From Halogeometricum rufum (lineage in GTDB: Archaea; Halobacteriota; Halobacteria; Halobacteriales; Haloferacaceae), in NCBI RefSeq assembly GCF_900112175.1, contig NZ_FOYT01000005.1, positions 1 to 64,000 on the forward strand: 64,000 bases of DNA, in the 5' to 3' direction. Shown piece by piece: positions 7,201 through 36,856 of the stretch (positions are counted from its first letter, which is position 1; each line of letters starts with the position of its first letter). The translations under genes and the position numbers were made by a program. Below the pieces are notes generated by a model. It made no database searches. It was not told the origin of the DNA and saw nothing but the letters and a program-made list of their open reading frames with translations.

Positions 7201-7385
7201 GTCTTGTTCCACGCCGTTCCGAGGTGCATCTGACCCGACGTGTACGGCGGCCCGTCGACGAAGAAGAAGGCCGGGTCGTCCGCGTGCGCCTCCTTCGTCG
7301 CCTCGTAGGCGTTCTCCTCGTCCCAGTAGTCGCCGACCGCGGACTCCAGGTCCGCCGGCGTGTACTGGTCGCTTAGGTCGTCCAT
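4254..7385 (-). CDS. ileS: Isoleucine--tRNA ligase
   Basis: Class I aminoacyl-tRNA synthetase that charges tRNA-Ile and edits valine. It has 1043 residues, as expected for the archaeal/eukaryotic-type enzyme. The HIGH-type signature appears as MHLGT at about 53-57 and KMSKS at about residues 596-600 (NENGRKMSKSLGN). The WIDSSVATW segment and the long acidic C-terminal region are also typical. The frame stays open far upstream, but the ATG at 7385 gives the conserved N-terminus and has a TATA-like box (bases 7406-7413) about 25 bases ahead. This fits a leaderless mRNA. Confidence 0.97.
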   Translation of the reverse strand: MDDLSDQYTPADLESAVGDYWDEENAYEATKEAHADDPAFFFVDGPPYTSGQMHLGTAWNKTLKDAIVRYKRMTGHRVTDRPGYDMHGLPIEVKVEEELGFETKRDIEEYGMESFIEECKSFAERNREAMDEDFQSIGVWMDWDDPYKTLSPEYMEAAWWAFQQVAERGLVEQGKRSVNYCPRCQTAIAANEVEYDEIESPSIYVKFPLQGREGSLVIWTTTPWTIPANTFVAVDGEMTYQAVRAEKGGESEVLYVAEPCVEDVLKKGRYEDYEVVEELSGDEMVGWEYDHPLADRLTEFADFEGAGEVYTADYVEADRTGLVHSAPGHGQEDFARGQELGLDVFVPVNGRGEFTEQAGDYAGTFVRDANPEIVEDLDADGHLLHSGEHRHRYGHCWRCDTDIIFLATDQWFITVTDVKEELLDNIADSEWHPQWARDNRFRDFVADAPDWNISRQRYWGIPLPIWQSDDGDFLVVGTREELAERADQDVDPEELDLHRPSVDPLTITEDGTTYERVPDVFDVWIDSSVATWGTLDYPSETAAFEELWPADLIVEAHDQTRGWFWSQLGMGTAALGEIPYKEVLMHGFANDENGRKMSKSLGNIVTPEEAIDRAGRDPLRAYLLSHDQQGVDLSFEWDGLDDTQSDLNIFWNVFRFPLPYMELDGYDPSNPDLDAGELTVVDEWVLSRLQTVKAEVAAAWDDYEVSDALNAVIDFVTGDVSRFYVKAIRERMWEEEDSASKRGAYATLATVLNETVRLVAPFTPYVAERMYQHLDGSETTVHALDYPTVDESWRDEELERNMAVLRNVEEAAANARQQGERKLRWPVQRVVVASEDDEVAEAVEALSDLLADRVNARSVEVVETFDELVEYADPQMGVIGPAFGGDAQKVMQAVKGASREAVESGVEVDGEAVELTDEMVEYRAEPPENVYAAEFDATDGTDGGVVYVDTSLTEEIEAEGYARDVIRRIQEMRKRLDLDVEEEIAVSLDVQDDRVADLVNRHDSLVAEEVRATTLDAAGEDADLTEEWDVEGVTIVIGVTRTE

Positions 7386-7405
7386 ACAGGAGGACAATTC
7401 GGGAA

Positions 7406-7413
7406 CGTATATC
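7406..7413 (-). promoter_or_regulatory. TATA-like box of ileS
   Basis: GATATACG on the minus strand, centred about 25 bases before the ATG at 7385. It supports that start over the much longer open frame and implies a leaderless transcript. Confidence 0.55.
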
Positions 7414-7549
7414 AAGTCCGTGGAACCGTGCGAACGGGTCGACGGGCGACCGACCGACCGACGCGCAACCGACCCCTGTCGACCTGCGGCCGGACCCCGA
7501 GGGCCGGCCTCCACCCGCACCCGCCCGCGTTCCACCGGACCCCGCCGAC

Positions 7550-8146
7550 CTACGACCGGCGTCGCGGCGTCGCCGTGTGCCGTCCGATTCGGTCGCCCGT
7601 CTCCTCGTCGTAGACGGTCACCACCGCCGTCGACGGCGTGGCCTCCGCCTCGTACCGCGTCAGCGTCGTGGCGATGACCGCTTCCACGTCGTCGTCGAAC
7701 GACAGCGACTCGGGGTCGCGCGGCGACCGGACCGTCGGAACAGAGACGGTGTCCCACCCGGTCCAGGCGAGTTCGCCGTGCAGTATCGTCGGCTGGACGC
7801 TGTACGCCTCCTCGACGGGCATCTTCGCCTCGAACAGGAGGAGGAAGCCGTTCGAGTAGTCGTCGTTCCGCACGTCGTTGTCCATCGACTGCTCTCGCTT
7901 CGGGTAGTGGTCGGTGAACAGGTCGTCCACGTCCGCGGGCGACTCGGTGAACAGTTCGGTGTGGGCGGTTCCCCGCGACGCCGCGGAGAGGCCGCCGACG
8001 AACCACGGTTCGTCTGCGGGGTGGAACACCGTCGTCGCGTGGTCCATGTCGATACGACCGCTCACCCGTCGCCGGACGGTCCCGAGACAACCGGTGAGGC
8101 CGGTGAGCGAGGCGGCGGACGCCGCGAGGAGGGCTCTGCGCTTCAC
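7550..8146 (-). CDS. Predicted lipoprotein, haloarchaeal, unknown function
   Basis: A 198-residue protein with an N-terminal signal containing twin basic residues (KRR), a hydrophobic stretch and a lipobox LTGC with Cys20. It is therefore probably exported and lipid-anchored on the outside of the membrane. The mature part is acidic with beta-rich character; no enzyme motif is recognised. The start codon is GTG at 8146, supported by a TATA-like box GTTATTTATC at 8168-8177. The neighbours (ileS downstream, a Tat-exported beta-helix protein upstream) lie in separate transcription units and say little about function. Confidence 0.8.
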   Translation of the reverse strand: MKRRALLAASAASLTGLTGCLGTVRRRVSGRIDMDHATTVFHPADEPWFVGGLSAASRGTAHTELFTESPADVDDLFTDHYPKREQSMDNDVRNDDYSNGFLLLFEAKMPVEEAYSVQPTILHGELAWTGWDTVSVPTVRSPRDPESLSFDDDVEAVIATTLTRYEAEATPSTAVVTVYDEETGDRIGRHTATPRRRS

Positions 8147-21622: not shown

Positions 21623-23155
21623 TTACAGCCAGTCCGCGAACGTACCTTCCAGCAGCGTCTCGGTCTGGTTCCCGATGTACTCGCGTTGCATGGCGAAGAC
21701 GGCCTCGGCGAAGTCCTCGCCGTCGTCGAGGTGGCTCTCGACGCGTTCGACCTTCCACCCGGCGGGCGTCCGTCCCGACGCCGCGCGGACGCGGAGCGGT
21801 TCGACGTACCGGTCGGCCTCCGCCTGCGAACACCCCGCCGACTTCAGCCCGTCGACGGCGTGCGCGAGGATGTCGTCGTACACCTCGGCGGGGTCCGTCG
21901 TCTCGTGGCCGTCGTTGGCTATCCACCGCTGCTCGCCGTCGAAGCCGTCGCGCATGGCCGTGTAGAAGTTCTCCTTCGCCGTCTCCCAGTCCTGGTCGAC
22001 GACCGGGTGCTGGCGCTTCGGGAGGCTCTCCATCAGGCCAGCGAACGCCGCCTGAAAGGCGATGGAGTCGCGGACGGTCGGCTGTGCGGCGATGGGGCGG
22101 AACTCGATGCGGGCGTTCGCCGACGACCGCGTCGCGCCGTCGAACACCGGGCGAACCCACCGCCAGAACGTCCCGTGCTTGCGCCGGAGCGTGGCGAACG
22201 AGTCGTCGAACCGGTCGCCGCGCGGGACGGGCATCGGAACGACGCTCGGGTCGGTGGCGACTCTGTCCACCGCCTCCGCCACGTCCGAGAGGTCCTCGGG
22301 GAAGCGGACCTTCTGTGCGTCTTTGCCGTTCAACACGGACTCGAAGACGGTGATGCGGTTCCCCATGTAGCCGTCGGCGAGGATGTCGCGCGGGTCGGCG
22401 TCGTCGTAGAGGTCCGGCGGGAAGAACGGCGAGTTGACGCCGAGGGCGAGGAGTGGCCCGGCGACGCGGAGCGCGTAGTTGAAGTAGACGGGCAGGTCGG
22501 CGGCGTGAGCGACCTGATAGTGCGGCTGGATGGAGGTGATGAGCGACTCGGGCATCACCGTATCGGCGTCGAGTTCGACGTGCGGGGCGTCGAGGCCCAT
22601 GTCGTCGGCCGCGTACTGCCCGTTGGCCATCGCGTGGTAGCGGACGGAGTCGCTCATGTTCGTCGCGATGCGGATGCCGTCGTCCTCGATGCTGTCGGTG
22701 AGGTACCCCCGGGCCGTCTCGCCCGTCGGCGGGACGGTCCAGAGGCCGTCGCTGACGAGGCGCATCCCCTCCGAGGAGGTGCACTGGAGGGCGGCGGTGA
22801 GACGGGCGAGCACCTCCGATTCCTGCGCCCTGAGGCCGTGCGGGTTCAACGGCTGCGGACTCGTCGTCATCTCGGCGTTGTGGAGGCCGAGTTCCTTCTC
22901 GAACCCGATGAGTTCGAGGAGGCGACGGGGGACGCGCATCAGTCCGTTCGCCATGTCGTCGTCGGCCGAGGACCACCGGCCGTCCGCGACGGCGTAGAAC
23001 TCGTACTCCAGCCCGACGATTGACTGGTGGTTGTCGAACGTGCCGGCCGCCAACTCGGATTTGACCACCTCGGCGTCCGCCTCCGCCTGCGCCTCGTACT
23101 CCTCGGCGTCGACGGCGAGCACGTCTCGAACCCGGTCCGCAAGCTCGTCGCTCAT
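21623..23155 (-). CDS. GCS2-type glutamate--cysteine ligase-like protein
   Basis: A 510-residue carboxylate-amine ligase-like protein. The N-terminal part has VGLEYEFYAV, the first Glu-rich strand of the GCS2/YbdK fold, followed by HNAEMTTSPQP. The C-terminal catalytic region has ANARIEFRPIAAQPTVRD, matching the R-x-E-x-R type segment of that family. Haloarchaea use gamma-glutamylcysteine as their main thiol, so a role in thiol synthesis is possible. This protein is longer than typical GCS2 enzymes (about 360-430), and another substrate cannot be ruled out. The start at 23155 fits the family; the frame is open upstream. It is divergent from ligA. Confidence 0.72.
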   Translation of the reverse strand: MSDELADRVRDVLAVDAEEYEAQAEADAEVVKSELAAGTFDNHQSIVGLEYEFYAVADGRWSSADDDMANGLMRVPRRLLELIGFEKELGLHNAEMTTSPQPLNPHGLRAQESEVLARLTAALQCTSSEGMRLVSDGLWTVPPTGETARGYLTDSIEDDGIRIATNMSDSVRYHAMANGQYAADDMGLDAPHVELDADTVMPESLITSIQPHYQVAHAADLPVYFNYALRVAGPLLALGVNSPFFPPDLYDDADPRDILADGYMGNRITVFESVLNGKDAQKVRFPEDLSDVAEAVDRVATDPSVVPMPVPRGDRFDDSFATLRRKHGTFWRWVRPVFDGATRSSANARIEFRPIAAQPTVRDSIAFQAAFAGLMESLPKRQHPVVDQDWETAKENFYTAMRDGFDGEQRWIANDGHETTDPAEVYDDILAHAVDGLKSAGCSQAEADRYVEPLRVRAASGRTPAGWKVERVESHLDDGEDFAEAVFAMQREYIGNQTETLLEGTFADWL

Positions 23156-23304
23156 ACCCTCCCGTGTGCGTCCGTGCGGCTTGAATCCCGCGGCTCCGTC
23201 GTCCCGTGGCACGCCCTCCCGAACGAGGGGTCGCACGGCTTCGAGGACCGCGGGCGGCGACCGATTCGGCGGACTTTTTTCCGCCGGGAGTTCAGAGACC
23301 GACG

Positions 23305-25200: not shown

Positions 25201-26046
25201 TCAGACGTACCGCGACAGCGCCTCGAACGCGCGTTCGGCCGCCTCGTCCGGCCGGTCCGGGTAGGTGTACAGTTCGAGCGTGACGAACCCGTCGTAGCCG
25301 ACGCCGTCGAGGGCGTCGAACACGGCCGCGAAGTCGAGGTCGCCGTCGCCGGGGACGAGGTGGTAGTGCTTCCCGCGGACGCCGCCGGCGATGTCTTCGA
25401 GGTGGACGCCGGTGATGTGACCGGCGGCCTTCTCGATGCTCTCGCGGGGGTCCTCGCCGTAGACGGCGGCGTGTCCCACGTCGAGGTTGACGCCGAGTCC
25501 GTCGCGGCCCACGTCGTCGATGAGCGTCAGCACCTCGTCGGTACTCTCGACGAGGAGTTCGGGTTCGAACTCGATGCCGACGTCCACCCCGCGCGGTTCG
25601 GCGTAGTCGAGGATGTCGTGCAGGGAGTCCAGCAGGTGGTCGTACGCCGTCTCCGGCATCGTCCCCGGGAGGGGGCGACCGCTGGCGAGGCAGACGGCCG
25701 GCGCGCCCGTGGCGTCGGCCAGGTCGACGGCGCGCTTCGTGTAGTCGACGCGCCACGCGCGCAGGTCGGCGTCCGGGTTGACGACGCTCGGTTCGAAGAA
25801 CGACGACGGCGGCGCGTCGTCGTAGTAGCCCGTCGCCGTGTTCGCGTTGACGTTCGAGACGGCGACGCCGGTGTCGTCGAGGGCGTCGGCGAGGGCCGCC
25901 TCGTCGTCCGCGTCGAACTCCGGGAAGTACGCGTGGGGCGCGTCGCCGAGTATCTCGACTCCCGCGTAGCCGTGGCCGGCGATGCGCCGGACGGCCTCGG
26001 GGAGCGTGTGGTTCGTGTAGGCGTTCGTCGAGAATGCGAGTTTCAT
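25201..26046 (-). CDS. TIM-barrel sugar-phosphate isomerase/epimerase family protein (copy 1, ebo-like cluster)
   Basis: A 281-residue xylose isomerase-like/AP-endonuclease-2-fold protein. The metal site of the family is intact: E159 in GIEFEPE, D189 and H192 in LDVGH, H215 in GVHLED, the HYHLVPGDG loop (about 227-235) and E258 in VTLELY. The real substrate is unknown; an isomerase or epimerase acting on a cyclitol or sugar phosphate fits. It is clearly paralogous to the TIM-barrel protein two genes upstream. It is the last gene of the operon tatD-TIM2-ubiA-TIM1, starting 10 bases after the prenyltransferase stop. Confidence 0.88.
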   Translation of the reverse strand: MKLAFSTNAYTNHTLPEAVRRIAGHGYAGVEILGDAPHAYFPEFDADDEAALADALDDTGVAVSNVNANTATGYYDDAPPSSFFEPSVVNPDADLRAWRVDYTKRAVDLADATGAPAVCLASGRPLPGTMPETAYDHLLDSLHDILDYAEPRGVDVGIEFEPELLVESTDEVLTLIDDVGRDGLGVNLDVGHAAVYGEDPRESIEKAAGHITGVHLEDIAGGVRGKHYHLVPGDGDLDFAAVFDALDGVGYDGFVTLELYTYPDRPDEAAERAFEALSRYV

Positions 26047-26056
26047 CGTTGGGTCG

Positions 26057-26989
26057 TCAGCTCACGTCGAAGTATCTGGACAGCACCGTGGCGGGGACGA
26101 GGAACGCGGCGGCGGCCGCGGCGAACGCCGGCCCCGCGACGACGGCGACGGCGGCGTCGAGGAGGACGATGCCGAGGACGCAGGTGCCGACGGCGGGACC
26201 GACGTTCGCGGGCGTCGGGTCGGCCATGGCCGGGGCGAGCGCTCGCCAGTCCCACGCGAGGAAGCACGCGGCGACGACGGTGGCGAGGAGGCCCGTCGCC
26301 GTCGTGCCGAGGAGGGTGGCGACGACGGCGACGACCATCGCGGCCAGCGTGGCCGCCGCGGCGGTGAGTGCCACGGCCGACGCCTCGCCGCCGCCCGTCT
26401 CGGCCTCCGCCATCCGGGTCAGCGCGGCGACGTAGCCGACGACGGCCGCCGGGAACAGGAGCGCGACGCCGCCGAACGCGGCCGCTCCGGCGACCGACAG
26501 GCCGAGGGCGACGTTCAGTCCGCGGGCCGCGCCCATGGCGAGGAACCCCGCGGGGCCGCCCTTCAGGAGGCCGTCGTAGAGGGCGACGGCGAGGGCGAGC
26601 GTCGCGGCCGTCGCGCCCGGGACGGCCCCGCCGACGGCCGTCGCGAGGACGACGCCGGCGAGGAGGAGTCCGACCCCGAGCGAGAGCGCCTCGGTCCGCC
26701 CGACGCGACCCGAGGGAATCGGTCGGTTCGGGCGGTGTCTGCGGTCTTCGGCCGCGTCGGCCACGTCGTTGAGCGTCGTGCCCGCGGCGTAGACGAGGAC
26801 GGACGCGAGACAGAGGCCGACCACCGTCGGGAGCGACGCCGTCGCGCCGAGGGCGACGGCGAGGGCGACGCCCGCGAGGACGTCCGGCGGGGCGGTGAAG
26901 ACGTTCGGGAGTCGAATCAGGTCGGCGTAGTCGCTCGCGACTCGCCGGACCGACTCGACTCCGAGTGCGTCTCCGACGCCCGTCGCCAT
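26057..26989 (-). CDS. UbiA-type prenyltransferase (EboC/SCO3242-like)
   Basis: A 310-residue integral membrane protein with about eight to nine segments. The first aspartate-rich motif is NDVADAAED at residues 74-82, which binds the Mg-diphosphate of a prenyl donor, and VALYDGLLKGGPAGF resembles the region after it in UbiA proteins. The second Asp-rich site is less clear, around DWRALAPAMADP. The acceptor is unknown. Flanked by two TIM-barrel epimerases and a TatD-like hydrolase, it matches the EboC position of bacterial ebo clusters. In this context a prenyl transfer to a cyclitol or other metabolite is likely; ordinary quinone or lipid synthesis is the alternative. Confidence 0.88.
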   Translation of the reverse strand: MATGVGDALGVESVRRVASDYADLIRLPNVFTAPPDVLAGVALAVALGATASLPTVVGLCLASVLVYAAGTTLNDVADAAEDRRHRPNRPIPSGRVGRTEALSLGVGLLLAGVVLATAVGGAVPGATAATLALAVALYDGLLKGGPAGFLAMGAARGLNVALGLSVAGAAAFGGVALLFPAAVVGYVAALTRMAEAETGGGEASAVALTAAAATLAAMVVAVVATLLGTTATGLLATVVAACFLAWDWRALAPAMADPTPANVGPAVGTCVLGIVLLDAAVAVVAGPAFAAAAAAFLVPATVLSRYFDVS

Positions 26990-26992
26990 CCG

Positions 26993-27829
26993 TCAGGCCC
27001 ACCCGTGGTCGCGGAGGTAGTCCATCGCCCCCTGCGCCGTCTCGGCGGCCGTCTCCTGGTACGGGTAGAGTTCGACCGTCACGTAGCCGTCGTAGCCCGA
27101 GTCCTCGACGGCCTGCAGGAAGCCGTCGATGTCCATCGCGCCGTCGCCGAGTTGGGTGTGTTCGTGCGTGCGGTCGGCGGGGATGTCTTCGAGGTGGTAG
27201 TGCCGCGTGTACGGCGCGAGCGTCTCGACCAGTTCCGCGGGGTCCTCGCCCACGCAGAACAGGTGCCCCGCGTCGAAGTTGCAGGTGATTCGGTCTGAGT
27301 CCACGCGGTCCATCAGGTCGAGGAACTGGTCGGACGTCTCTATCAGGAGGTCGGGTTCGGGTTCGACCATCACGTCCACGCCCACGTCCTCGGCCTTCGC
27401 GGCGAGTTCGTTCAGTCCCTCGACGAACGTGTCCGTCGCCCACTCGCGGGACTTCCCCTCGGGAATCGGGCCGCCGGGTTCGATGGATATCTTGTCGCAG
27501 CCGAGTTCGGCCGCGGCGTCCAGCGAGTCCAGCGTGTAGTCGACGCGGCGGCGGCGGTAGTCCTCGTCTACCTCGACGAACGAGGGGTGGTGGAAGTCCT
27601 CGATGGCCGTCAGCATGAACGCGTTACAGTTGCTGATCTCGAGGTCGTTGGCGTCGAGGGCGGTTCGCACCTCGTCGTACTCCTCGCCCGTCGCCTCGGG
27701 CGGGTAGAGGAACGGCTGGTCGAACAGGAGTTCGATGCCGTCGTAGCCCGCGTCCGCGACGGCCTCGATGGCCCCGACGGTGGAGTACTCCCGGAACGCG
27801 TTCATCGAGAAGCCGAACTGGAGCGACAT
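26993..27829 (-). CDS. TIM-barrel sugar-phosphate isomerase/epimerase family protein (copy 2, ebo-like cluster)
   Basis: A 278-residue paralogue of the protein at 25201-26046. Shared blocks include the RVDYT region, the acid pair VEPEPDLL (E156), FDAGH (D186, H189), HYHLED (H212), the THEHTQLGDG loop and E253 in VTVELYPY, so the metal centre is complete. It is three bases from the tatD-like stop and three bases from the prenyltransferase start, so co-translation is expected. Two related but distinct isomerases in one operon suggest two successive isomerisations or a heteromeric enzyme. The substrate is unknown. Confidence 0.88.
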   Translation of the reverse strand: MSLQFGFSMNAFREYSTVGAIEAVADAGYDGIELLFDQPFLYPPEATGEEYDEVRTALDANDLEISNCNAFMLTAIEDFHHPSFVEVDEDYRRRRVDYTLDSLDAAAELGCDKISIEPGGPIPEGKSREWATDTFVEGLNELAAKAEDVGVDVMVEPEPDLLIETSDQFLDLMDRVDSDRITCNFDAGHLFCVGEDPAELVETLAPYTRHYHLEDIPADRTHEHTQLGDGAMDIDGFLQAVEDSGYDGYVTVELYPYQETAAETAQGAMDYLRDHGWA

Positions 27830-27832
27830 GGG

Positions 27833-28687
27833 TCACTCGGCCTCTGCGCCCTGCGGGGGGTTCTCGTCCGCCGACTCCGCCGCGACGGCGTCCGCGTAGT
27901 CGAAGTGCGGCGACTGCGAGAAGAACTCCAGGGGGTTCTCGAACAGCAGTTTGCGCACCTCCTCGCGGTCCCAGCCGGCGTCTATCATCGCGTCGCGGGC
28001 CTTCGGGACGGCGAGTGGGTCCGAGTCGTCCCAGTCCGCCGAGGAGTTGATGATGCGTCGGTCGGTGCCGTACTCCTCGAGCAGGGGCATGACCTCCTCG
28101 ATGGATATCTTGCCGGGGTAGAGCGTGAACCCGAGCCAGCAGTCCGTCGCCGCCGTCGTCTCCATCGTGTCCGGTTCGTTGTGGTCGATGATGATGCGCT
28201 CCTGCGTGACGCCCATCTCCTCGATGATGTCCACCGTGCGTTCGGCACCTTTCGGCTTCTCCGTGTGCGGGAGGTGGATGATGACCGGCTGTTCGTGTTC
28301 CTCGGCGAGTCTGAGTTGCTCGCGGAAGGCCCACTCCTCCTCGTCGGTCTGGAGGTTGAAGCCGATCTCGCCGACGCCGACGACCCGGTCGCGTTCGAGG
28401 TACTCCGGCAGGCGGTCGATGACCGCCTCGGACATCTCGCGGTCGACGGCCTCCTTGGGGTTGATGGAGACGGTGACGTAGTGGTCCATCCCCGCCACCC
28501 GGTCGGCGCGTTCGGTCTCGAAGTCGATGATGTGCTCGAAGTAGTCGAAGAACGATTCGGGATACAGCTTGTCCGACCCCGACCAGAACGAGGGTTCGAT
28601 GACGCACTCGATGCCGGACCGTCGCATCTCACGGTAGTCATCCGTGGTCCGCGAGGTCATGTGCGCGTGTGAGTCGATGAGGCGCAT
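27833..28687 (-). CDS. TatD-like metal-dependent hydrolase (EboB-like)
   Basis: A 284-residue amidohydrolase-fold protein. The metal ligands expected for TatD are present: DSHAH (H7, H9), E107 in GEIGF, H138 in IIHLPH, H169 in IIDHNEP and D218 in SSADWDD. True TatD is a 3'-5' nuclease, but in ebo-type clusters the homologue is thought to act in small-molecule metabolism. The start at 28687 (MRLIDSHAH) fits the family; an ATG 13 codons upstream is in frame but adds nothing conserved. It is the first gene of the minus-strand operon and divergent from inositol-phosphate synthase. Confidence 0.87.
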   Translation of the reverse strand: MRLIDSHAHMTSRTTDDYREMRRSGIECVIEPSFWSGSDKLYPESFFDYFEHIIDFETERADRVAGMDHYVTVSINPKEAVDREMSEAVIDRLPEYLERDRVVGVGEIGFNLQTDEEEWAFREQLRLAEEHEQPVIIHLPHTEKPKGAERTVDIIEEMGVTQERIIIDHNEPDTMETTAATDCWLGFTLYPGKISIEEVMPLLEEYGTDRRIINSSADWDDSDPLAVPKARDAMIDAGWDREEVRKLLFENPLEFFSQSPHFDYADAVAAESADENPPQGAEAE

Positions 28688-28788
28688 GGGCCACACTCCG
28701 GACCAGTCGGGCTTTGTTACCGGCATCCTACAGGTTTAGGCGCCGAGAAAGCTCGTGATACGCCCCCGGTAGCAGTCGGTTAACGAGC

Positions 28789-28798
28789 CGTTCGAACG
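28789..28798. promoter_or_regulatory. Palindrome in the divergent ebo-like promoter region (candidate operator)
   Basis: CGTTCGAACG, a perfect 10-base palindrome, lies roughly midway in the 189 bases between the tatD-like and inositol-phosphate synthase starts. It is the natural place for a regulator that controls both operons. Short palindromes also arise by chance in GC-rich DNA. Confidence 0.35.
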
Positions 28799-28842
28799 AG
28801 GGTATTCGACCGATTTCGGCGGCCTCCCGCGTGAAGCAGACG

Positions 28843-28852
28843 CATAACTAAC
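28843..28852 (+). promoter_or_regulatory. TATA-like box of the inositol-phosphate synthase gene
   Basis: CATAACTAAC, centred about 30 bases before the ATG at 28877, the best AT-rich element on the plus strand of the divergent region. Confidence 0.45.
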
Positions 28853-28876
28853 CGCGTTCCGTCCGCCGTCCAGTAC

Positions 28877-30196
28877 ATGACGCGAACGCGAACGGGTGTC
28901 TGGTTCGTCGGCGCCCGCGGCAACGTCGCCACCACGGCCATCGCCGGGGCGCGCGGCATCGCCCGAGACACGACGGACCGAACCGGGATGGTCACCGCCC
29001 GGGAGCCCTGTACCTCACTCGAACTCCCACCGGTCGAGGGGTTCGTCTTCGGCGGCCACGACATCGCCGACAGACCCCTCCATCACACCGCGACCGAACT
29101 CGCCGACTCGGACATCGTCGACAGGCGGACGCTCGAAGCCGTCGCCGACGACCTGCGGGAGATAGACGACCGCATCGAGACGGGCACCGCCCAGAACTGC
29201 GGGAGCGCCGTCTCCTTGGCCGACGGCGACACGCTGGACCGCGACCACACCGTCGGGGAGGTGGTCGAGCAGATTCGCGCGGACTACGCCGACTTCGTCG
29301 CCGAGACGGGCGTGGACCGTCTGGTCGTCGTCAACCTCGCCTCCTCGGAACCGCCCGTGAGCGAACCCGAGCGGTACGACACGCTGGCCGCCTTCGAGGA
29401 AGCCGTCGAGTCGGACGACGCGGACCTGCCGGCGAGTTCGCTGTACGCGTACGCCGCCCTCTCGGCGGGCCACCCCTACGTCAACTTCACGCCCTCCACC
29501 GGGAGCGAACTCGGCGGCCTGCGCGAGTTGGCCGAACGCGAGAACGTCCCGCACGTCGGCCGCGACGCCAAGACGGGCGAGACGCTCCTGAAGACCGCGC
29601 TCGGGCCGATGTTCGCCGGCCGCAACCTCGACGTGATGTCGTGGGACGGCTTCAACATCCTCGGCAACGGCGACGGCAAGGTGTTGGAGGACGACGAGAA
29701 CAAGGCCGGGAAACTCCAGAGCAAGGGCGGCGTCCTCTCGAACATCCTCGGGTCGGAGATGCACAACCGGGTTCGCATCGACTACACTCCCTCCCTCGAC
29801 GACTGGAAGACGGCGTGGGACCACGTCCACTTCCGCGGGTTCATGGGGACGGAGATGAGCCTGCAGTTCACGTGGCAGGGCGCGGACTCCTCGCTGGCCG
29901 CCCCCCTCGTGTTGGACCTCGTTCGCCTCGTCGCCCACGCCGACGAACGCGGCGAGGGCGGCGTCCAGACCCACCTCGCCTCGTTCTTCAAAGAGCCGAT
30001 GGACGTGGACGAACACGACCTCTCCCGGCAGTTCGCCATGCTGGAGGCCTACGTGAACGACCACGCCGACGGCGCGAACCCCGACCCGGCGACGCCCGTG
30101 CGGACGGACGGCGCCGGCGGTGACGACAACACGACGGACGGAGACGACGACGCTCCCGACGACACGGCCCGCGGCGACGCGGGGGGCGAACGATGA
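28877..30196 (+). CDS. ino1: Myo-inositol-1-phosphate synthase
   Basis: NAD-dependent cyclase turning glucose 6-phosphate into inositol phosphate. It has 439 residues. Family marks are the Rossmann segment VGARGNVATT (11-20), VNLASSEPP, FTPSTGSELGGL, the catalytic-region RDAKTGETLLKTAL, NILGNGDGKVL and SLQFTWQGADS. The last 40 or so residues form an acidic Gly/Asp/Thr tail not found in the core family. The gene is divergent from the tatD/ubiA operon and overlaps the phosphatase-family gene by four bases, tying it to the ebo-like cluster, where bacteria of the classic ebo type have a sugar-phosphate cyclase instead. General inositol-lipid synthesis is the alternative role. Confidence 0.93.
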   Translation: MTRTRTGVWFVGARGNVATTAIAGARGIARDTTDRTGMVTAREPCTSLELPPVEGFVFGGHDIADRPLHHTATELADSDIVDRRTLEAVADDLREIDDRIETGTAQNCGSAVSLADGDTLDRDHTVGEVVEQIRADYADFVAETGVDRLVVVNLASSEPPVSEPERYDTLAAFEEAVESDDADLPASSLYAYAALSAGHPYVNFTPSTGSELGGLRELAERENVPHVGRDAKTGETLLKTALGPMFAGRNLDVMSWDGFNILGNGDGKVLEDDENKAGKLQSKGGVLSNILGSEMHNRVRIDYTPSLDDWKTAWDHVHFRGFMGTEMSLQFTWQGADSSLAAPLVLDLVRLVAHADERGEGGVQTHLASFFKEPMDVDEHDLSRQFAMLEAYVNDHADGANPDPATPVRTDGAGGDDNTTDGDDDAPDDTARGDAGGER

Positions 30197-31608
30197 CCGG
30201 GACCGACCGCCCCGCAGAACGGGTCGTCGTCCTCGACGTGGTCGGCCTGCAACCCGAACACGTCGACGGCGAGACGACGCCGAACCTCGCCGGCCTGTTC
30301 GGCGACGGCGCGACGACGGGCGTCGTCCCCCCGTTCCCGTGCGTGACGATACCCTCGCAGACGACGCTCGCGACCGGCCTCTCGCCGTCGACCCACGGCG
30401 ACGTGTCGAACGCCGAGTACGACCGAGAGCGCGACGCGGTCGAACTCTGGGGTCGCGACAGCGGCGACCGACGGCGCGTCTGGGAGATGCAGGGCGACAG
30501 CGGACTCACGACCGGCGCGCTGTTCTTCCAGCACCTGTACGGCACCGACGTCGACGTGGCGGTGACGCCGAAACCCATCGAGGACGAGAACAACGACCTC
30601 ATCGAGATGAACTGCTGGACGAACCCCGACGGGTTCTACGACGAACTCCGCGAGGAGTACGGCCACTTCCCGCTTCACAACTACTGGGGGCCGGCCGCCA
30701 ACGCGGAGAGCACGAAGTGGATTCTCTCGGCGGCGCGCGAGGCGACCGACCGCTACGACCCCGACATGCTGTGGGCGTACGTCCCCCACCTCGACTACGC
30801 GGGACAGAGTCACGGGCCGAATTCGGAGGCGTTCGCCGAGGCCCTCGCGGAGGTGGACGAACTCGTCGGCGACTACCTCGACTTCCTCCGCGGGACCGAC
30901 CGCTGGGAGGAGACGGCCGTCGTCGTCGTCAGCGAGTACGGCTTCCACGAGGTGTCGACGCCCGTCTTCCCGAACCGAGCGCTCCGCGAGGCGGGCCTGA
31001 TGGCGACGCAGGAGGCGGCGGAAGGCGGGCTGATTCCGGACCTCGCGGCCTCCGAGGCGTTCGCCGTCGCGGACCACCAAGTCGCGCACGTCTACTGCGA
31101 CCAAGACGCCGTCGAACGGGCGCGCGAGGCCCTCGAACCGCTCCCGGGCATCGAACGGGTCCTCGACGGCGACGACCAGACCGCCTACGACATCGACCAC
31201 GCGAACGCGGGGGACCTCGTCCTCGTCGCCGACCCCGACGCGTGGTTCACCTACTACTGGTGGGACGAGGGCGAGGACGAAGCGATGCCGCCGTACGCCG
31301 ACAGCGTCGACATCCACGAGAAACCCGGCTACGACCCCTGCGAACTGTTCCTCGGCGAGGACGGCTTCGTCTCGACGGACCCCTCGAAGGTCCGGGGGTC
31401 CCACGGGCGCGTCGACTCCGAGACGACGCCGTTCTTCGGCGTCGGCGGCCCCGCCGCGCCGTCGCTCTCGCTGGACGGCGACATCGACATGCGTCAGGTC
31501 GCGCCGACGGTGCTCGACCTCCTCGGCGTCCGCGACGACGTGGCGATGGAGTTCGAGGGCGCGTCCATCCTCGCGGCGTCGAACGCGCTCGGACCGGCCG
31601 ACGACTGA
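30193..31608 (+). CDS. Nucleotide pyrophosphatase/alkaline phosphatase family protein (EboF-like)
   Basis: A 471-residue member of the alkaline-phosphatase superfamily, type I phosphodiesterase branch. D15 in VLDVVGLQ and T52 in PCVTIPSQTTLATG match the metal and nucleophile positions; HLDYAGQSHG supplies the next Asp/His pair. Where many relatives have SDHG, this protein has SEYGFHEV, and a late histidine is in GSHGRV. No signal peptide is seen, so it should act in the cytosol. It overlaps the inositol-phosphate synthase gene (ATGA), implying joint action, for example removing phosphate or a nucleotide group from a cyclitol product. Confidence 0.88.
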   Translation: MTGTDRPAERVVVLDVVGLQPEHVDGETTPNLAGLFGDGATTGVVPPFPCVTIPSQTTLATGLSPSTHGDVSNAEYDRERDAVELWGRDSGDRRRVWEMQGDSGLTTGALFFQHLYGTDVDVAVTPKPIEDENNDLIEMNCWTNPDGFYDELREEYGHFPLHNYWGPAANAESTKWILSAAREATDRYDPDMLWAYVPHLDYAGQSHGPNSEAFAEALAEVDELVGDYLDFLRGTDRWEETAVVVVSEYGFHEVSTPVFPNRALREAGLMATQEAAEGGLIPDLAASEAFAVADHQVAHVYCDQDAVERAREALEPLPGIERVLDGDDQTAYDIDHANAGDLVLVADPDAWFTYYWWDEGEDEAMPPYADSVDIHEKPGYDPCELFLGEDGFVSTDPSKVRGSHGRVDSETTPFFGVGGPAAPSLSLDGDIDMRQVAPTVLDLLGVRDDVAMEFEGASILAASNALGPADD

Positions 31609-31716: not shown

Positions 31717-32433
31717 ATGACCGTCTCCTTCCGGAACCTCGACGTCTCGTGGCTCGGCTACGCCACGGCCAGAATCGAGTCGGAGTCGGGGTACGTCGTC
31801 TACCTCGACCCCGGCCGCTACGGCGTGCTGGACGACTACTACGCCCGCGACGGCGACCTGATCTGCGTCACCCACGACCACCACTACGACAGCGACGCGA
31901 TACGCTCGGTGGCAAAGGAGGACGCCACCGTCGTCGTCTTCGAGGCGGTGGACGCGGACAACATCGACCGCGACGTCGAACCGGTCGCGGACCTCCCGTA
32001 CGAGGTGGTCCGCGTCGGCGAGGAGGAACACCTGACGGTCGGCCCCGTGGACCTGTGGACGGTCGCCGCGTACAACGAGGCCGACGGTCCGCACACCAGA
32101 GACGACGGGAGCCTCGTCCACCCGCCCGGGTTCGGCTGTGGGTTCCTCCTGTCGGTGGACGGCACCACGGTGTTCTGGCCCGGCGACAGCGACGCTCTCG
32201 ACGGCTTCGAGCGGTTGTCGGTCGACCTCTTCCTCGCCAACATCGGCGGCAGCGTCGTGATGGACCGCCACGAGGCCGCCGACCTGGCCGAGGCCCTGAA
32301 CCCCGGACTCGTCCTGCCGATTCACTACGACACCATCGACCTCCTCTCGACCGACCCCGAGGCGTTCGCGGCCGACGTGGCCGCCCGCGGCGTCCCCGTC
32401 GTCCTCGAAGACCCGACGGACCACGCGGTCTGA
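31717..32433 (+). CDS. Metallo-beta-lactamase-fold hydrolase (UlaG-like)
   Basis: A 238-residue protein with the metallo-hydrolase fold. The first metal motif reads VTHDHHYDSD (H53, H55, D58); the usual HxHxDH is slightly altered, with Tyr at 57. Later marks are VFWPGDSDAL and LPIHYDTIDLL with the C-terminal histidine. The substrate is unknown; UlaG relatives open lactones. An AT-rich box (TCGTTATTCC) sits about 27 bases before the ATG, so it is transcribed apart from the upstream phosphatase gene, 108 bases away. Any link to the ebo-like cluster rests only on position. Confidence 0.87.
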   Translation: MTVSFRNLDVSWLGYATARIESESGYVVYLDPGRYGVLDDYYARDGDLICVTHDHHYDSDAIRSVAKEDATVVVFEAVDADNIDRDVEPVADLPYEVVRVGEEEHLTVGPVDLWTVAAYNEADGPHTRDDGSLVHPPGFGCGFLLSVDGTTVFWPGDSDALDGFERLSVDLFLANIGGSVVMDRHEAADLAEALNPGLVLPIHYDTIDLLSTDPEAFAADVAARGVPVVLEDPTDHAV

Positions 32434-32521
32434 AGTGCGGGTCCCGCGGAGGGCGTCCCGAGGTGTGGCCGCCGAATCCGCGGCAACCGTTTTGCCCCGT
32501 CCGCCCCTCGGGTAGGAGACG

Positions 32522-33343
32522 ATGACGCCGCTCACCCCGACCGTCGACCACGGCCACCTCGAACGACGCATCCCGTACTACCGCGCCGGCGACGGCCCGC
32601 GAACGCTCGTCGTCCTCCCCGGACTGAGCGACGCGTTCGCCGGCCGGCCGAACCGGGCGACGGCGGAGTACCTCGCCCGCGTGACCTACGCCGGACTCAC
32701 CGACGAGTTCACCGTGTGGACGGTCGGCCGACCGAAGCGTCTCGACGCCGAGACGACGACGCGGGAACTCGCCGGGTCGGCCGCGACGGCCCTCGACGAA
32801 CTCGACGGCGGCCACGTCGTCGGCCACTCGATGGGGGGACTGCTCGCCCAACACCTCGCCGCCGACTACCCGGACCTGGTGGACCGACTCGTCCTCGCGT
32901 CCTCGGCCGCGCACGTCGGCGACGCCGGCCGGGCGATTCTCGAAGACTGGCAGACGTGGGCGCGGACGGACGCGTGGGGGAACCTGTACGCCGCCTCGGC
33001 GCGCGAGTCACACACCGGGTGGCGACGGCGAGCGTACCCCCCGCTGTTGCGCGCGGCCGGGTCCCTCCTGTCGCCGCCGTACCCCGGCGACGTGGAGACG
33101 TCCATCCGGGCCTGCCTCGACCACGACGCCTCGGATAGACTCCCCGACCTGACGACGCCGACGCTGGTCGTCGGGGGCGACGAGGACCGCCTGTTCCCGC
33201 CGGCCCTGTTGCGCGAGACGAAGGCGATGCTCCCGGATGCGACGCTCGCGGTGCTGTCGAACACGGGGCACGCCGCCGTCTCCGAACGGCCGAAGACGGT
33301 CAACCGACTGCTCTCGCGGTTCCTCCGCGGCGAGTCGCTCTGA
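32522..33343 (+). CDS. Alpha/beta hydrolase
   Basis: A 273-residue alpha/beta-hydrolase-fold protein with the nucleophile elbow GHSMGG (Ser103). VVGGDEDRLFPP contains the likely catalytic Asp, and NTGHAAVSE near the end the catalytic His. The substrate is unknown; esterase or lipase-type activity is plausible. The start MTPLTPTVDHG has CCGTTTTGCCC near -30 as a possible TATA element. It ends three bases from the stop of the convergent top6A gene. Confidence 0.9.
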   Translation: MTPLTPTVDHGHLERRIPYYRAGDGPRTLVVLPGLSDAFAGRPNRATAEYLARVTYAGLTDEFTVWTVGRPKRLDAETTTRELAGSAATALDELDGGHVVGHSMGGLLAQHLAADYPDLVDRLVLASSAAHVGDAGRAILEDWQTWARTDAWGNLYAASARESHTGWRRRAYPPLLRAAGSLLSPPYPGDVETSIRACLDHDASDRLPDLTTPTLVVGGDEDRLFPPALLRETKAMLPDATLAVLSNTGHAAVSERPKTVNRLLSRFLRGESL

Positions 33344-33346
33344 GCC

Positions 33347-34441
33347 TCAGATGACGCCCATCGCGTCCAGTCGCTCGGGCAGGTAGGTCTCCGTCACGAA
33401 GTCGAGGCCCCGGGAAGCGAGCGCCTGCTGTTCGGCCTTCTTGTCGATGTCGAGTTGGAGTTCTATCTGCTCCTCCCAGTAGTCGGTCATGAACCGCGGG
33501 TCCTCGAGTTCGGATTCGAGGGCGTTCACGTCGGAGTCCGACAAGGGGTCGGTCGGCAGGTCGTACTCGACGATGTCCTCCGGTTGGATGCCGACGAACT
33601 TCGCCTGCGGCGTGGCGAGGTACTCCGAGAGGTGCGCGGACTTGATGGAACCGTACGCGACGGAGCCGTAGATGCGGTACGACCACGGGTCGCCGTCTGT
33701 GAAGACCACGACGGGCAGGTCGAGTTCGTCGTGGAGGCGCTTCGTGATGCGGCGCGTCGCCCGCGCGGGTTGCCCCTTCAGGTGGACGACGAGACAGCCG
33801 TACTCCTCGTCGAAGCCGTTCTCGATGAGACGGTCGCGCATCCCACCGGTCTCCACGCAGAGGACGAAGTCGATGTCGTGGTCGAGGAACTCGATGGTGT
33901 CGGGGTTGTTCGGAATCTGGTAGCCGCCCTCGCCGACGTCCTCCTGACAGTGTATCTCGCGCTCGCCGCGACGGGTCTGCTCGCGGAGTTCCAGCGGCCC
34001 CATCAGGGTCGCGCCCGACTCCTCCGGGCGCATGTGGAAGTCCTCGCGGGTGACCTGCGAGACGATTTCGAGGTCCTCGATGAGCTGGTTCGACTCGTCT
34101 TGGTCGTTGAACTGCGCCTCTTCGGTGTCCCAGGACTCCGAGAGGTAGTACAACTCACGGAGGGTCGAGGAGCGGTCCTCCTCCAACTGGTTGACGAGGA
34201 ACTCGATGGCGTACGTCGCCTTCAGCAGTTTGCGCGCGCCGCGGACGCTGTTGGCCGACCGGGTGGACTTCCGGTCGCCGTACACCCACACCTTCGACTC
34301 CTCGTCGAAGACGATGTTGCTCTTCGTCCGCGTCGGGATGTCCATGTGCGGGATATCGCCGTCGGCGAACTGGTCGTAGAACTCCGCGGCGAGGTCGATG
34401 AGTCGTTCCTGCGCGAGTTCGTCGTTCTGTTTCGTGCTCAT
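33347..34441 (-). CDS. top6A: DNA topoisomerase VI subunit A
   Basis: DNA-cutting subunit of the archaeal type IIB topoisomerase, homologous to Spo11. It has 364 residues, the usual length. The winged-helix CAP region carries the catalytic tyrosine in [11 protein letters not shown] (Y98/Y99). The Toprim domain follows, with the acidic residues in [11 protein letters not shown] and [12 protein letters not shown]. The gene begins 12 bases after the top6B stop, and the two make a heterotetramer. Confidence 0.97.
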
Positions 34442-34453
34442 TGTTGGTCGGGT

Positions 34454-36856
34454 TCAGGTGTTGACTGTCAGTTTCTCCGCCTCGACGCCGTCGACGTTGA
34501 TGTCGAACGACGCCTCCGAGGACACGGTGTAGGTGAGTTCCGCGGTGTCGCCCGCCGACACCGACGGGTTCCACTTGACGAACCACTCGCCGTCCAAGTC
34601 CACGACGGTGGCGTCGTCGGGCACGTCCGTCGGTTCGACGGTGACGATGTCGGTGATGTCGGGGGTCTCCGAGCGGTCGGAGTGGTTCTCGACGACGAGG
34701 GTGACGGTGTCGCCCTCGACGTGGCGTTCGACGCTCACGTTGTTCATGATGCGCGCGAGTGCGCCGTCGATGTTCGGCCGTTCGCGGTGGGTCACCTCCG
34801 CGAGTTTGTCGGCCATCTCGGGCAGGATGCGCCCGAGGACGTCCTGTTTCTTCCGGCGCTTCTGCATCGACCGGCGCTTGTTCAGGTACGACTTCAGTTC
34901 GCGCGCCGCCTCGCGGATGGCGAGTTCTATCTCGTCCTCTATCTCGGGGATGTTCGCGAGGGCGTCCTTCGACTCGGAGGTGAACGGCACGTTCGTGGAC
35001 GCGACGTGGACCATGATGACCGCCGGCCCACTCGGCATGCCGGAACCGCCGGGTTGGTCCAGCCCGTAGTTGCGCCAGCCGATTCGCTTGACCACGTCCG
35101 TCGTCGCGCACGCCCCGCGCTGGTAGACGAGGGGGACGCGGTTGGCGAAACGGAGCAGGTCGACCGACCCCTCGGACGCCAACTCGCCGCCGTAGGCGAT
35201 GCCCGCCTCGACGATGAACGGGTCGCCGCCGTGGACTTCCGCGTCGCGCGTCGCCGCGGCGTAGAAGTCGGCGTCGTACTCCTTCCGGAGGCCGGCCTCG
35301 ACCAACTCGGCGCTGATGGGCGACAGGCAGTTCGTCGGCGGCGCGAGGATGTCCGCCTCGCGCATCCCCTCCAGCAGTTCGGAGGCGGTGTCTCTGTCGT
35401 CGGCGACTTCCCGCACCTTCGGCACGTCGTCGGGGACGGTGCGCATGACCGCCCAGAGCGACTCGCAGACGTTCTCGCGGGCCGTGTCGCCGAACGACAC
35501 GTCGTCGGAGACCAGCAGGTCCGCCGACCGGTCCACGTACTCGCGGACCTGCTTCTTCGTCGCGCGGTGGACGGGCGAGGCGTCGAACTTCTCGGCGACC
35601 CGTTCGGCGAGTCCGTGGACCGTCTCGTCGTCCTTCCGCGTGCTCGTCGCCTCGTCGACGAGGGCGTACAGGTCCGACGTGCGGTCCGTCGTCAGCGTCG
35701 CCCACGCCGCCTCGACGGCGTTCTCGCGGACGGTGTCGCCGAACGTGACCCCGAACTCGTCTTCGATGTCGTCGGCGACGGTGTCGACGATGTCCGCGAC
35801 TTCGAAGTGCGTCGTCCGTTCGCGGTTCCTGAGCGTGTCGCCGACGCGCCCGGCGAACGTGTCCGTCGCCTCGGCACCCTTGTTGGCGACGGCGTCGGCG
35901 ATGGCGGCGTCCACGTCGGTGTCGTCGTCCTCGGGGACGCCCCACCCCATCTCGCGGCCGAAGTGTCTGTCGCGGAAGTTGTTCAGAATCTTGTCGGCCG
36001 TCTTCGCGCCGACGCGGGTGAACTCCTCCTGCAGGAAGCCCGAGACTGAGTACGACTCGGTGCGCGAGAGCATCTTGATGAGCGTCCCGAGTTCGACGCC
36101 GTGCGGGTGCGGTCGAATCTCCTCCGTCTCCGCGGGGAGGTCCGCCCCCTCGACGCGTTCGTAGCGGAGCGGTTCCTCCAACCCCGGTTCGTCGAGGACC
36201 AGTCGGGCGTGCGGGTTGACGACGGCGGTGTGCTTGACGTAGTCGTGGAGTTGCTGGCGGGCGCGCATGTTCGCCTCCATCTCCACCTCGATGCGCGTGC
36301 CGTGCGTCGGGGAGAGGTCGGACTCGCCCGGTTCGAGTTCGCGTTCGACCTGAATCTCCGGTTCGTTCGTGTCCGTGTCGATGATGAGTTCGAAGTACTG
36401 CGCCGCACTGTCGCCCTGCGTCCGCGAGGTGACTTTCGCGGGCTTGCCCGACGTGAGTTGCGAGTAGAGAACCGCCGCGGAGATACCGATACCCTGCTGT
36501 CCGCGCGACTGTTCGCGCGCGTGGAACCGGGAGCCGTACAGCAGTTTCCCGAACACCTTCGGAATCTGCTCTTTGGTGATGCCCGGCCCGTTGTCCTCGA
36601 CGACGAGCGTGTAGTAGTCGCCGGACTCGCGAATCTCGATGGAGATGTCGGGCTTGATTCCCGCCTCCTCGGTTGCGTCGAGGGCGTTGTCCACCGCCTC
36701 CTTCACGGCGGTGACCAAGCCTCGCGCCCCCGAGTCGAACCCGAGCATGTGCTTGTTCTTCTCGAAGAACTCGGCGATGGAAATCGCGCGTTGGCTCTCG
36801 GCCAACTCCTCTGCGATTCCCGCGTCCTCGCCGAGCGTCGACTGGAACGAGGTCAT
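34454..36856 (-). CDS. top6B: DNA topoisomerase VI subunit B
   Basis: ATPase subunit of topoisomerase VI. It has 800 residues, longer than non-halophilic relatives (about 530-660). The extra length is a segment at about 285-480 rich in Asp, Glu and Arg that seems to extend the helix-two-turn-helix/linker part, as in other haloarchaea. GHKL motifs are [12 protein letters not shown] (N box), VEDNGPGI and the glycine-rich RGQQGIGIS. The transducer domain ends the protein, with an Ig-like C-terminal domain. The promoter box TACTTAAGC precedes the ATG. It is divergent from gyrB. Confidence 0.97.

Follow-up and report, generated by a model that had tools for sequence, protein, structure and literature searches.

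What does a haloarchaeon make with a gene cluster that joins a membrane prenyltransferase to myo-inositol-1-phosphate synthase (MIPS)? The question is raised by six adjacent genes at positions 25201–31608 of a 64,000-nucleotide stretch of Halogeometricum rufum DNA (assembly GCF_900112175.1, contig NZ_FOYT01000005.1, positions 1 to 64,000; hereafter the window), which an earlier note had likened to the bacterial ebo operon. We have very little doubt that the cluster is real and that it is kin to EboC-type bacterial clusters. With modest confidence, we further propose that this haloarchaeal MIPS-type EboC cluster encodes a cytoplasm-and-membrane pathway to an inositol-derived, prenylated metabolite.

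In a class-wide search (242 Halobacteria genomes from 73 genera), we found an EboC-type UbiA in 28 genomes from 13 genera, and in all 28 it occurs together with a TatD-like hydrolase and a xylose-isomerase-like TIM barrel (TIM2); another such barrel (TIM1) usually adjoins. MIPS and an EboF-like protein (PDE) flank this set in 18 of the 20 longer loci, the exceptions being one genome in which MIPS lies 241 kb away (G020) and one in which the locus ends at a contig edge (G209), and gene order is the same in nearly every haloarchaeal locus. MIPS is present in 29 of the 242 genomes, that is, in all 28 with UbiA and in one other, an overlap whose chance probability is ~8e-36 by genomes and ~2e-13 by genera. 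Thus, within Halobacteria MIPS is practically a component of the cluster, and the conserved linkage together with this co-occurrence rules out a chance adjacency of two operons. The earlier note had named two outcomes that would undo its reading, best matches in ordinary quinone, nuclease or sugar families and a neighborhood not conserved in other haloarchaea; we observed neither, and the survey it had called for revealed a widely conserved cluster. The sole MIPS without UbiA in the survey lies at G208:C1:2810753–2811988 (L146). Megaplasmids of Natronococcus and Halocatena also bear the cluster, and G209 holds cluster genes in two copies (L008 and L150), in one of which frameshifts break TIM1. 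No cluster was found in a 197-genome sample of the phylum outside Halobacteria, the class composition of which is not stated.

The prenyltransferase (UbiA superfamily, 310 aa; 26057–26989, minus strand) scored 174.9 bits against the NCBIfam EboC family and 154.9 bits against the SCO3242 family, with the next family at 54.7 bits; as had been anticipated, EboC and SCO3242 are the best families, not an ordinary quinone family. Its Natronococcus orthologue reached 197 bits. Identity as an ordinary UbiA, MenA, heme O or DGGGP synthase is ruled out, because these score at most 55 bits against 175 and the genome has its own, separate DGGGP synthase with the second Asp motif intact. An alignment of 76 EboC-type proteins shows that R26, Y67, the NDxxDxxxD motif, M152, R156 and E197 are invariant, and that the second Asp-rich motif and ~19 residues are missing from the window protein and bacterial EboC alike. 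The AlphaFold model (pLDDT 93) has DGGGP synthase as its nearest fold; this archaeal enzyme is the closest characterized protein in sequence as well, with the same fold and first Asp motif, but it has the second motif and the ~19 residues that the EboC type lacks. In the UbiA tree, the haloarchaeal sequences form one clade (support 99) whose sister group the tree does not fix.

What the prenyltransferase acts on is suggested by its neighbors in other genomes. Using the UbiA alignment as query, we scanned the genomes of 84,980 species and annotated at least 80 loci with profiles, adding a few plasmid loci. Among the matches listed, 44 loci carry EboD, mostly in the order EboA-B-C-D-E-F, and 14 carry MIPS, seven of them haloarchaeal and the others from planctomycetes, Rokubacteria, Myxococcota and an unclassified bacterium; no listed locus has both. 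A third cyclase, in a Paenibacillus phytorum locus (L107), has 2-deoxy-scyllo-inosose synthase as its best structural homologue by a wide margin (316 bits, the next at 149) and is encoded with an IolE-like dehydratase at 5887–7889. Every EboC-type locus retrieved with a recognized ring-forming enzyme has one kind, EboD, MIPS or the inosose synthase. Three unlike ring-forming enzymes thus occupy one position, and MIPS, as the earlier note supposed, stands where EboD stands in other loci. A hybrid isoprenoid-cyclitol product had already been proposed for the bacterial ebo operon (PMC5133447); what we add, on the predicted identities of these proteins, is that MIPS or 2-deoxy-scyllo-inosose synthase can serve as the cyclase. 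The mutual exclusivity of the cyclases lends circumstantial support to a prenylated cyclitol.

The match to EboB, EboC, EboE and EboF that had been claimed held for three of the four: the TatD-like protein corresponds to EboB, UbiA to EboC and PDE to EboF, but the two TIM barrels each fall in a separate clade, distant from that of EboE, and score 20–28 bits on the EboE model, the cut-off of which is 250 bits. Identity of the barrels with EboE is thereby ruled out, and no true EboE was found. The absence of EboA and EboD, also noted beforehand, was borne out: EboA (NF035938) was not found in 13 cluster-bearing haloarchaeal genomes, whereas three positive controls gave a signal; no haloarchaeal locus among the matches listed has EboD; and a search of the H. 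rufum genome for the EboD-type family PF01761 gave nothing over the cut-off (best 20.8 bits). Because EboA, EboD and EboE are absent, we speak of an EboC-type, MIPS-type cluster and not of an ebo operon.

Pfam searches confirmed the family of each of the six proteins, with matches spanning nearly the whole length, and, judged by alignment, the predicted catalytic residues are intact in MIPS, the TatD-like protein and both TIM barrels. MIPS (439 aa; 28877–30196, plus strand; PF07994 and PF01658) is present in a single copy in the genome and has A. fulgidus Ino1 as its nearest solved structure (297 bits). D230, K232, K239, D266, K279, K283, K311, D337 and K372 are invariant in 16 cluster MIPS proteins, and we take these residues to be the equivalents of the Ino1 catalytic set. 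The TatD-like hydrolase (284 aa; 27833–28687, minus strand; PF01026), which adjoins the UbiA operon genes, is 42% identical to the TatD of the Streptomyces cluster, the alignment beginning at the second Met, and ~40% identical to bacterial EboB, with every ligand residue present; H7, H9, E107, H138, H169 and D218 are invariant even when classical EboB is included. TIM1 (281 aa; 25201–26046, minus strand; PF01261, 152 bits) is predicted to be a metal-dependent sugar or cyclitol isomerase, epimerase or dehydratase, and its candidate metal residues (E159/E161, D189, H215 and E258) are invariant in 10 orthologues, Paenibacillus among them. The corresponding residues of TIM2 (278 aa; 26993–27829, minus strand; PF01261, 168 bits), E156/E158, D186, H212 and E253, are likewise invariant. 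The two barrels pair one to one with two Paenibacillus phytorum TIM barrels (tree support 95 and 87). For "Art22", a TIM-barrel structure match, we found nothing in the openly licensed literature.

The sixth protein (PDE, alkaline-phosphatase superfamily, 471 aa; 30193–31608, plus strand; PF01663, 178 bits) is an EboF homologue: the profile of the cluster proteins scores 435–517 bits on classical EboF, within the PF01663 lineage, and the window protein is 37–42% identical to the PDEs of bacterial MIPS-type clusters. Its structural match is the fold of nucleotide pyrophosphatase (NPP)/phosphonoacetate hydrolase, and its metal site is altered. At the seven Xanthomonas NPP positions that we take to be metal-site residues, four are replaced in 17 of 17 EboF/PDE proteins, classical EboF included (D54 by V or P, H214 by Q, D257 by E and H258 by Y; V17, Q205, E248 and Y249 in the window protein), and Thr52, D201 and H404 are retained. 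These replacements make the published label of EboF as a phosphodiesterase doubtful, and the hydrolase activity of the EboF-like protein is, from its residues, uncertain. Five other residues (D294, H295, H299, D373 and H375; window 30193–31608, loci L062–L132, alignment A7) are invariant in the family; possibly they form a new site, or the protein is noncatalytic.

How might these proteins work together? MIPS would convert glucose-6-phosphate to inositol phosphate, the role that EboD or 2-deoxy-scyllo-inosose synthase may fill in sister clusters. TIM1 and TIM2 would then act on the cyclitol, or on its keto form, by isomerization, epimerization or dehydration, and the TatD-like and EboF-like proteins might remove or rearrange hydrolyzable groups, although the latter is without the usual dinuclear phosphatase site. 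The EboC-type UbiA would attach a prenyl chain (probably C15–C20) at the membrane; the site of attachment may be a hydroxyl, because the characterized enzymes closest to it make archaeal ether lipids. The export role of the cyanobacterial ebo cluster suggests, by analogy, that the product may act at or beyond the membrane; such an export or extracytoplasmic role we put forward tentatively, as less probable than otherwise. We infer the chemistry and purpose of the product, and prefer a prenylated cyclitol by a slight margin over any other outcome taken together. A broader formulation, in which EboC-type clusters are one trans-domain class, with EboD, MIPS and 2-deoxy-scyllo-inosose synthase interchangeably supplying a cyclitol that a UbiA without the second Asp motif prenylates to a new inositol-derived isoprenoid lipid, which in archaea might assist exported copper/PQQ-type dehydrogenases as a cofactor or as a carrier in the membrane, we regard as doubtful in its entirety.

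Several points weigh against the proposed pathway. The window UbiA lies under the curated cut-offs of both families (174.9 against 250 bits for the EboC equivalog and 154.9 against 260 for SCO3242), the cluster holds no inositol dehydrogenase or phosphatase, and the PDE site is degraded relative to the dinuclear NPP metal site with its catalytic Thr. The exclusivity of the cyclases is based on at least 80 loci from one scan and a few plasmid loci. Finally, the acceptor may be aromatic, because the bacterial EboC protein Ubi-297 farnesylated quinoline acids in vitro, and cyclitols are not among the acceptors named in the available part of that paper (PMC9235831).

On an aromatic reading, the pathway prenylates a quinoline- or hydroxybenzoate-like acceptor, and MIPS feeds a separate sugar part or carrier. 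Most UbiA-superfamily enzymes do use aromatic acceptors, and the substrates of the bacterial enzyme in vitro were 8-hydroxyquinoline-2-carboxylic acid and quinaldic acid; however, the assay offered aromatic acceptors (PMC9235831). Within the haloarchaeal clusters there is no aromatic-precursor gene, MIPS is inseparable from UbiA in haloarchaea, and the partners shared by the loci among the matches listed are cyclases, not aromatic-pathway enzymes. We therefore consider an aromatic acceptor unlikely. Somewhat less unlikely is that the cluster serves metabolite export, as in cyanobacteria, with the prenylated cyclitol a reusable lipid carrier for another compound and not the end product. Exported copper-binding PQQ-type dehydrogenases (GSDH) lie within ~10 kb of UbiA in at least seven of 23 haloarchaeal loci, some of them inside the cluster (chance ~1e-7), and a ScyD/ScyE-family protein adjoins a Streptomyces MIPS-type cluster. 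Yet EboA and EboE, which are required in Nostoc, were not found here, the window cluster has neither a GSDH neighbor nor a transporter, and haloarchaea produce no scytonemin.

Two further readings are less likely still. Catabolism or interconversion of inositol or a rare sugar, in which IolE/IolI/IolO-type TIM barrels would act on inositol from MIPS or from uptake, would explain why the best matches of TIM1 are IolO and fructoselysine epimerase, with IolE lower in the list, why a third TIM barrel and a BMP-type ABC transporter stand beside some clusters, and why the Paenibacillus cluster includes an IolE-like gene; but neither a prenyltransferase in the membrane nor a MIPS, which is biosynthetic, fits such a role, and inositol dehydrogenase, IolG, IolD and a kinase are all missing from the cluster, which makes this very unlikely. 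That the nearest solved MIPS comes from A. fulgidus would suit the synthesis of an inositol lipid headgroup or compatible solute (archaetidylinositol or di-inositol phosphate) with unrelated neighbors. We judge this extremely improbable, given that the cluster has no CDP-alcohol transferase or nucleotidyltransferase, that MIPS is almost always linked to UbiA and found together with it, and that 213 of the 242 haloarchaeal genomes lack a MIPS of this kind.

A pathway to a prenylated inositol would bear on more than haloarchaea. Ebo genes are conserved across many bacterial phyla and in algal plastids, and their product has been unsolved since they were named in 2016, partly because the product of EboD is unsolved. 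The 2016 survey found the genes in seven bacterial phyla and pointed out planctomycetes without eboD, and mentions neither archaeal ebo genes nor inositol (PMC5133447); an export role has been demonstrated for the Nostoc cluster (PMC6282210). In the openly licensed literature, where absence is no proof, we found no description of the archaeal cluster or of MIPS as an ebo cyclase and no paper that has both EboD and MIPS, and SCO3242 and SCO3243 appear there only within two transcriptome papers that are not on the cluster. The alternation of three cyclases is a direct and testable argument for cyclitol chemistry. Because the haloarchaeal cyclase looks like an ordinary inositol-phosphate synthase, an enzyme whose product is known, the first intermediate can be predicted and labeled isotopically, which makes the haloarchaeal cluster a starting point for learning what ebo-type pathways make; some species of the genetically tractable genera Haloferax and Haloarcula bear the cluster. 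If a prenylated inositol is found, this would explain a widespread orphan pathway and extend the known isoprenoid lipids of archaea by a new class.

The layout of the window cluster is exactly as first described: six genes in two divergent operons, with gaps of 10 bp (TIM1/UbiA), 3 bp (UbiA/TIM2) and 3 bp (TIM2/TatD) and a 4-bp overlap of MIPS and PDE in the open reading frame map. A longer version of the TatD-like frame starts at 28726, but 28687 is the most likely start because it is where the conserved N-terminal sequence MRLIDSHAHM and the alignments with bacterial homologues begin; the divergent spacer, a putative promoter region with no strand of its own, is therefore 189 bp (28688–28876). 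Two of its elements recur in the spacer of Halogeometricum limi, the nearest relative among the genomes compared (same genus group, G158): a TATA-like CATAACTAA ~30 bp ahead of the start of MIPS and, toward the TatD-like gene, the block CGGGCTTTGTTACCG. Upstream lies a gene for a 537-aa acidic protein (21623–23236, minus strand), glutamate-cysteine-ligase-type by eye and without a Pfam match at E≤0.001. In two haloarchaeal families, the surroundings of the cluster include genes for topoisomerase VI and for a metallo-beta-lactamase-fold protein (window 31717–36856; L036, L037 and L040), a hint that the location is old and shared. Elsewhere, exported GSDH proteins, most with a cupredoxin domain, are encoded beside or inside the cluster (L038, L039, L042, L045, L047, L058 and L059), as are BMP-type ABC transporter genes and a third TIM barrel (L047, L050, L058 and L059). 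The presence of GSDH is uninformative as a co-occurrence marker, 226 of 242 genomes having one; genomes with the cluster have more copies (3.3 versus 1.5, uncorrected for kinship and genome size).

Compared with known systems, the cluster shares with classical EboABCDEF (Bacteroidota, Cyanobacteria and eustigmatophyte plastids; PMC5133447) the EboB, EboC and EboF homologues, adjacent genes and one cyclase per cluster, but it has MIPS in place of the sugar-phosphate cyclase EboD and neither EboA nor EboE. A Hymenobacter MIPS cluster (L056) was ruled out as a member, having no UbiA. Planctomycete MIPS-TIM-UbiA-TIM loci (L071 and L127) also place MIPS beside an EboC-type UbiA and TIM barrels, without EboA or EboE, but PDE and TatD are often elsewhere and one barrel is of the Streptomyces type. 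The Gemmatirosa cluster consists of EboE, TatD, PDE, UbiA, MIPS and TIM. The Paenibacillus phytorum operon (NZ_WHOA01000090, L107; TIM1-TatD-TIM2-EboC-PDE-IolE-like-2-deoxy-scyllo-inosose synthase) has TatD, UbiA, PDE and one-to-one counterparts of TIM1 and TIM2, with no EboA in the genome and no true EboE; it differs in its cyclase, and its UbiA exceeds the EboC cut-off. Kinship with the SCO3242-type cluster of Streptomyces and its relatives (for example NZ_CP108303 and NZ_CP107961), proposed in the earlier note, is upheld by MIPS adjoining an EboC-type UbiA and by homologous TatD and PDE. SCO3243 is a myo-inositol phosphate synthase and SCO3242 is labeled "putative transferase"; the plasmid records give the order MIPS, SCO3242-family UbiA, TIM barrel, EboA, TatD, EboE, PDE. 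MIPS, PDE and TatD are 41–45% identical to those of Streptomyces and 37–45% identical to those of bacterial MIPS-type clusters generally, whereas Streptomyces has EboA, EboE and a single, other TIM barrel on one strand, and the haloarchaeal cluster has TIM1 and TIM2 in two divergent operons without EboA and EboE. We conclude that, as far as sequence comparison reaches, its nearest relatives are the MIPS-type EboC clusters of Streptomyces, Gemmatimonadota, Rokubacteria and Planctomycetes, together with the Paenibacillus operon.

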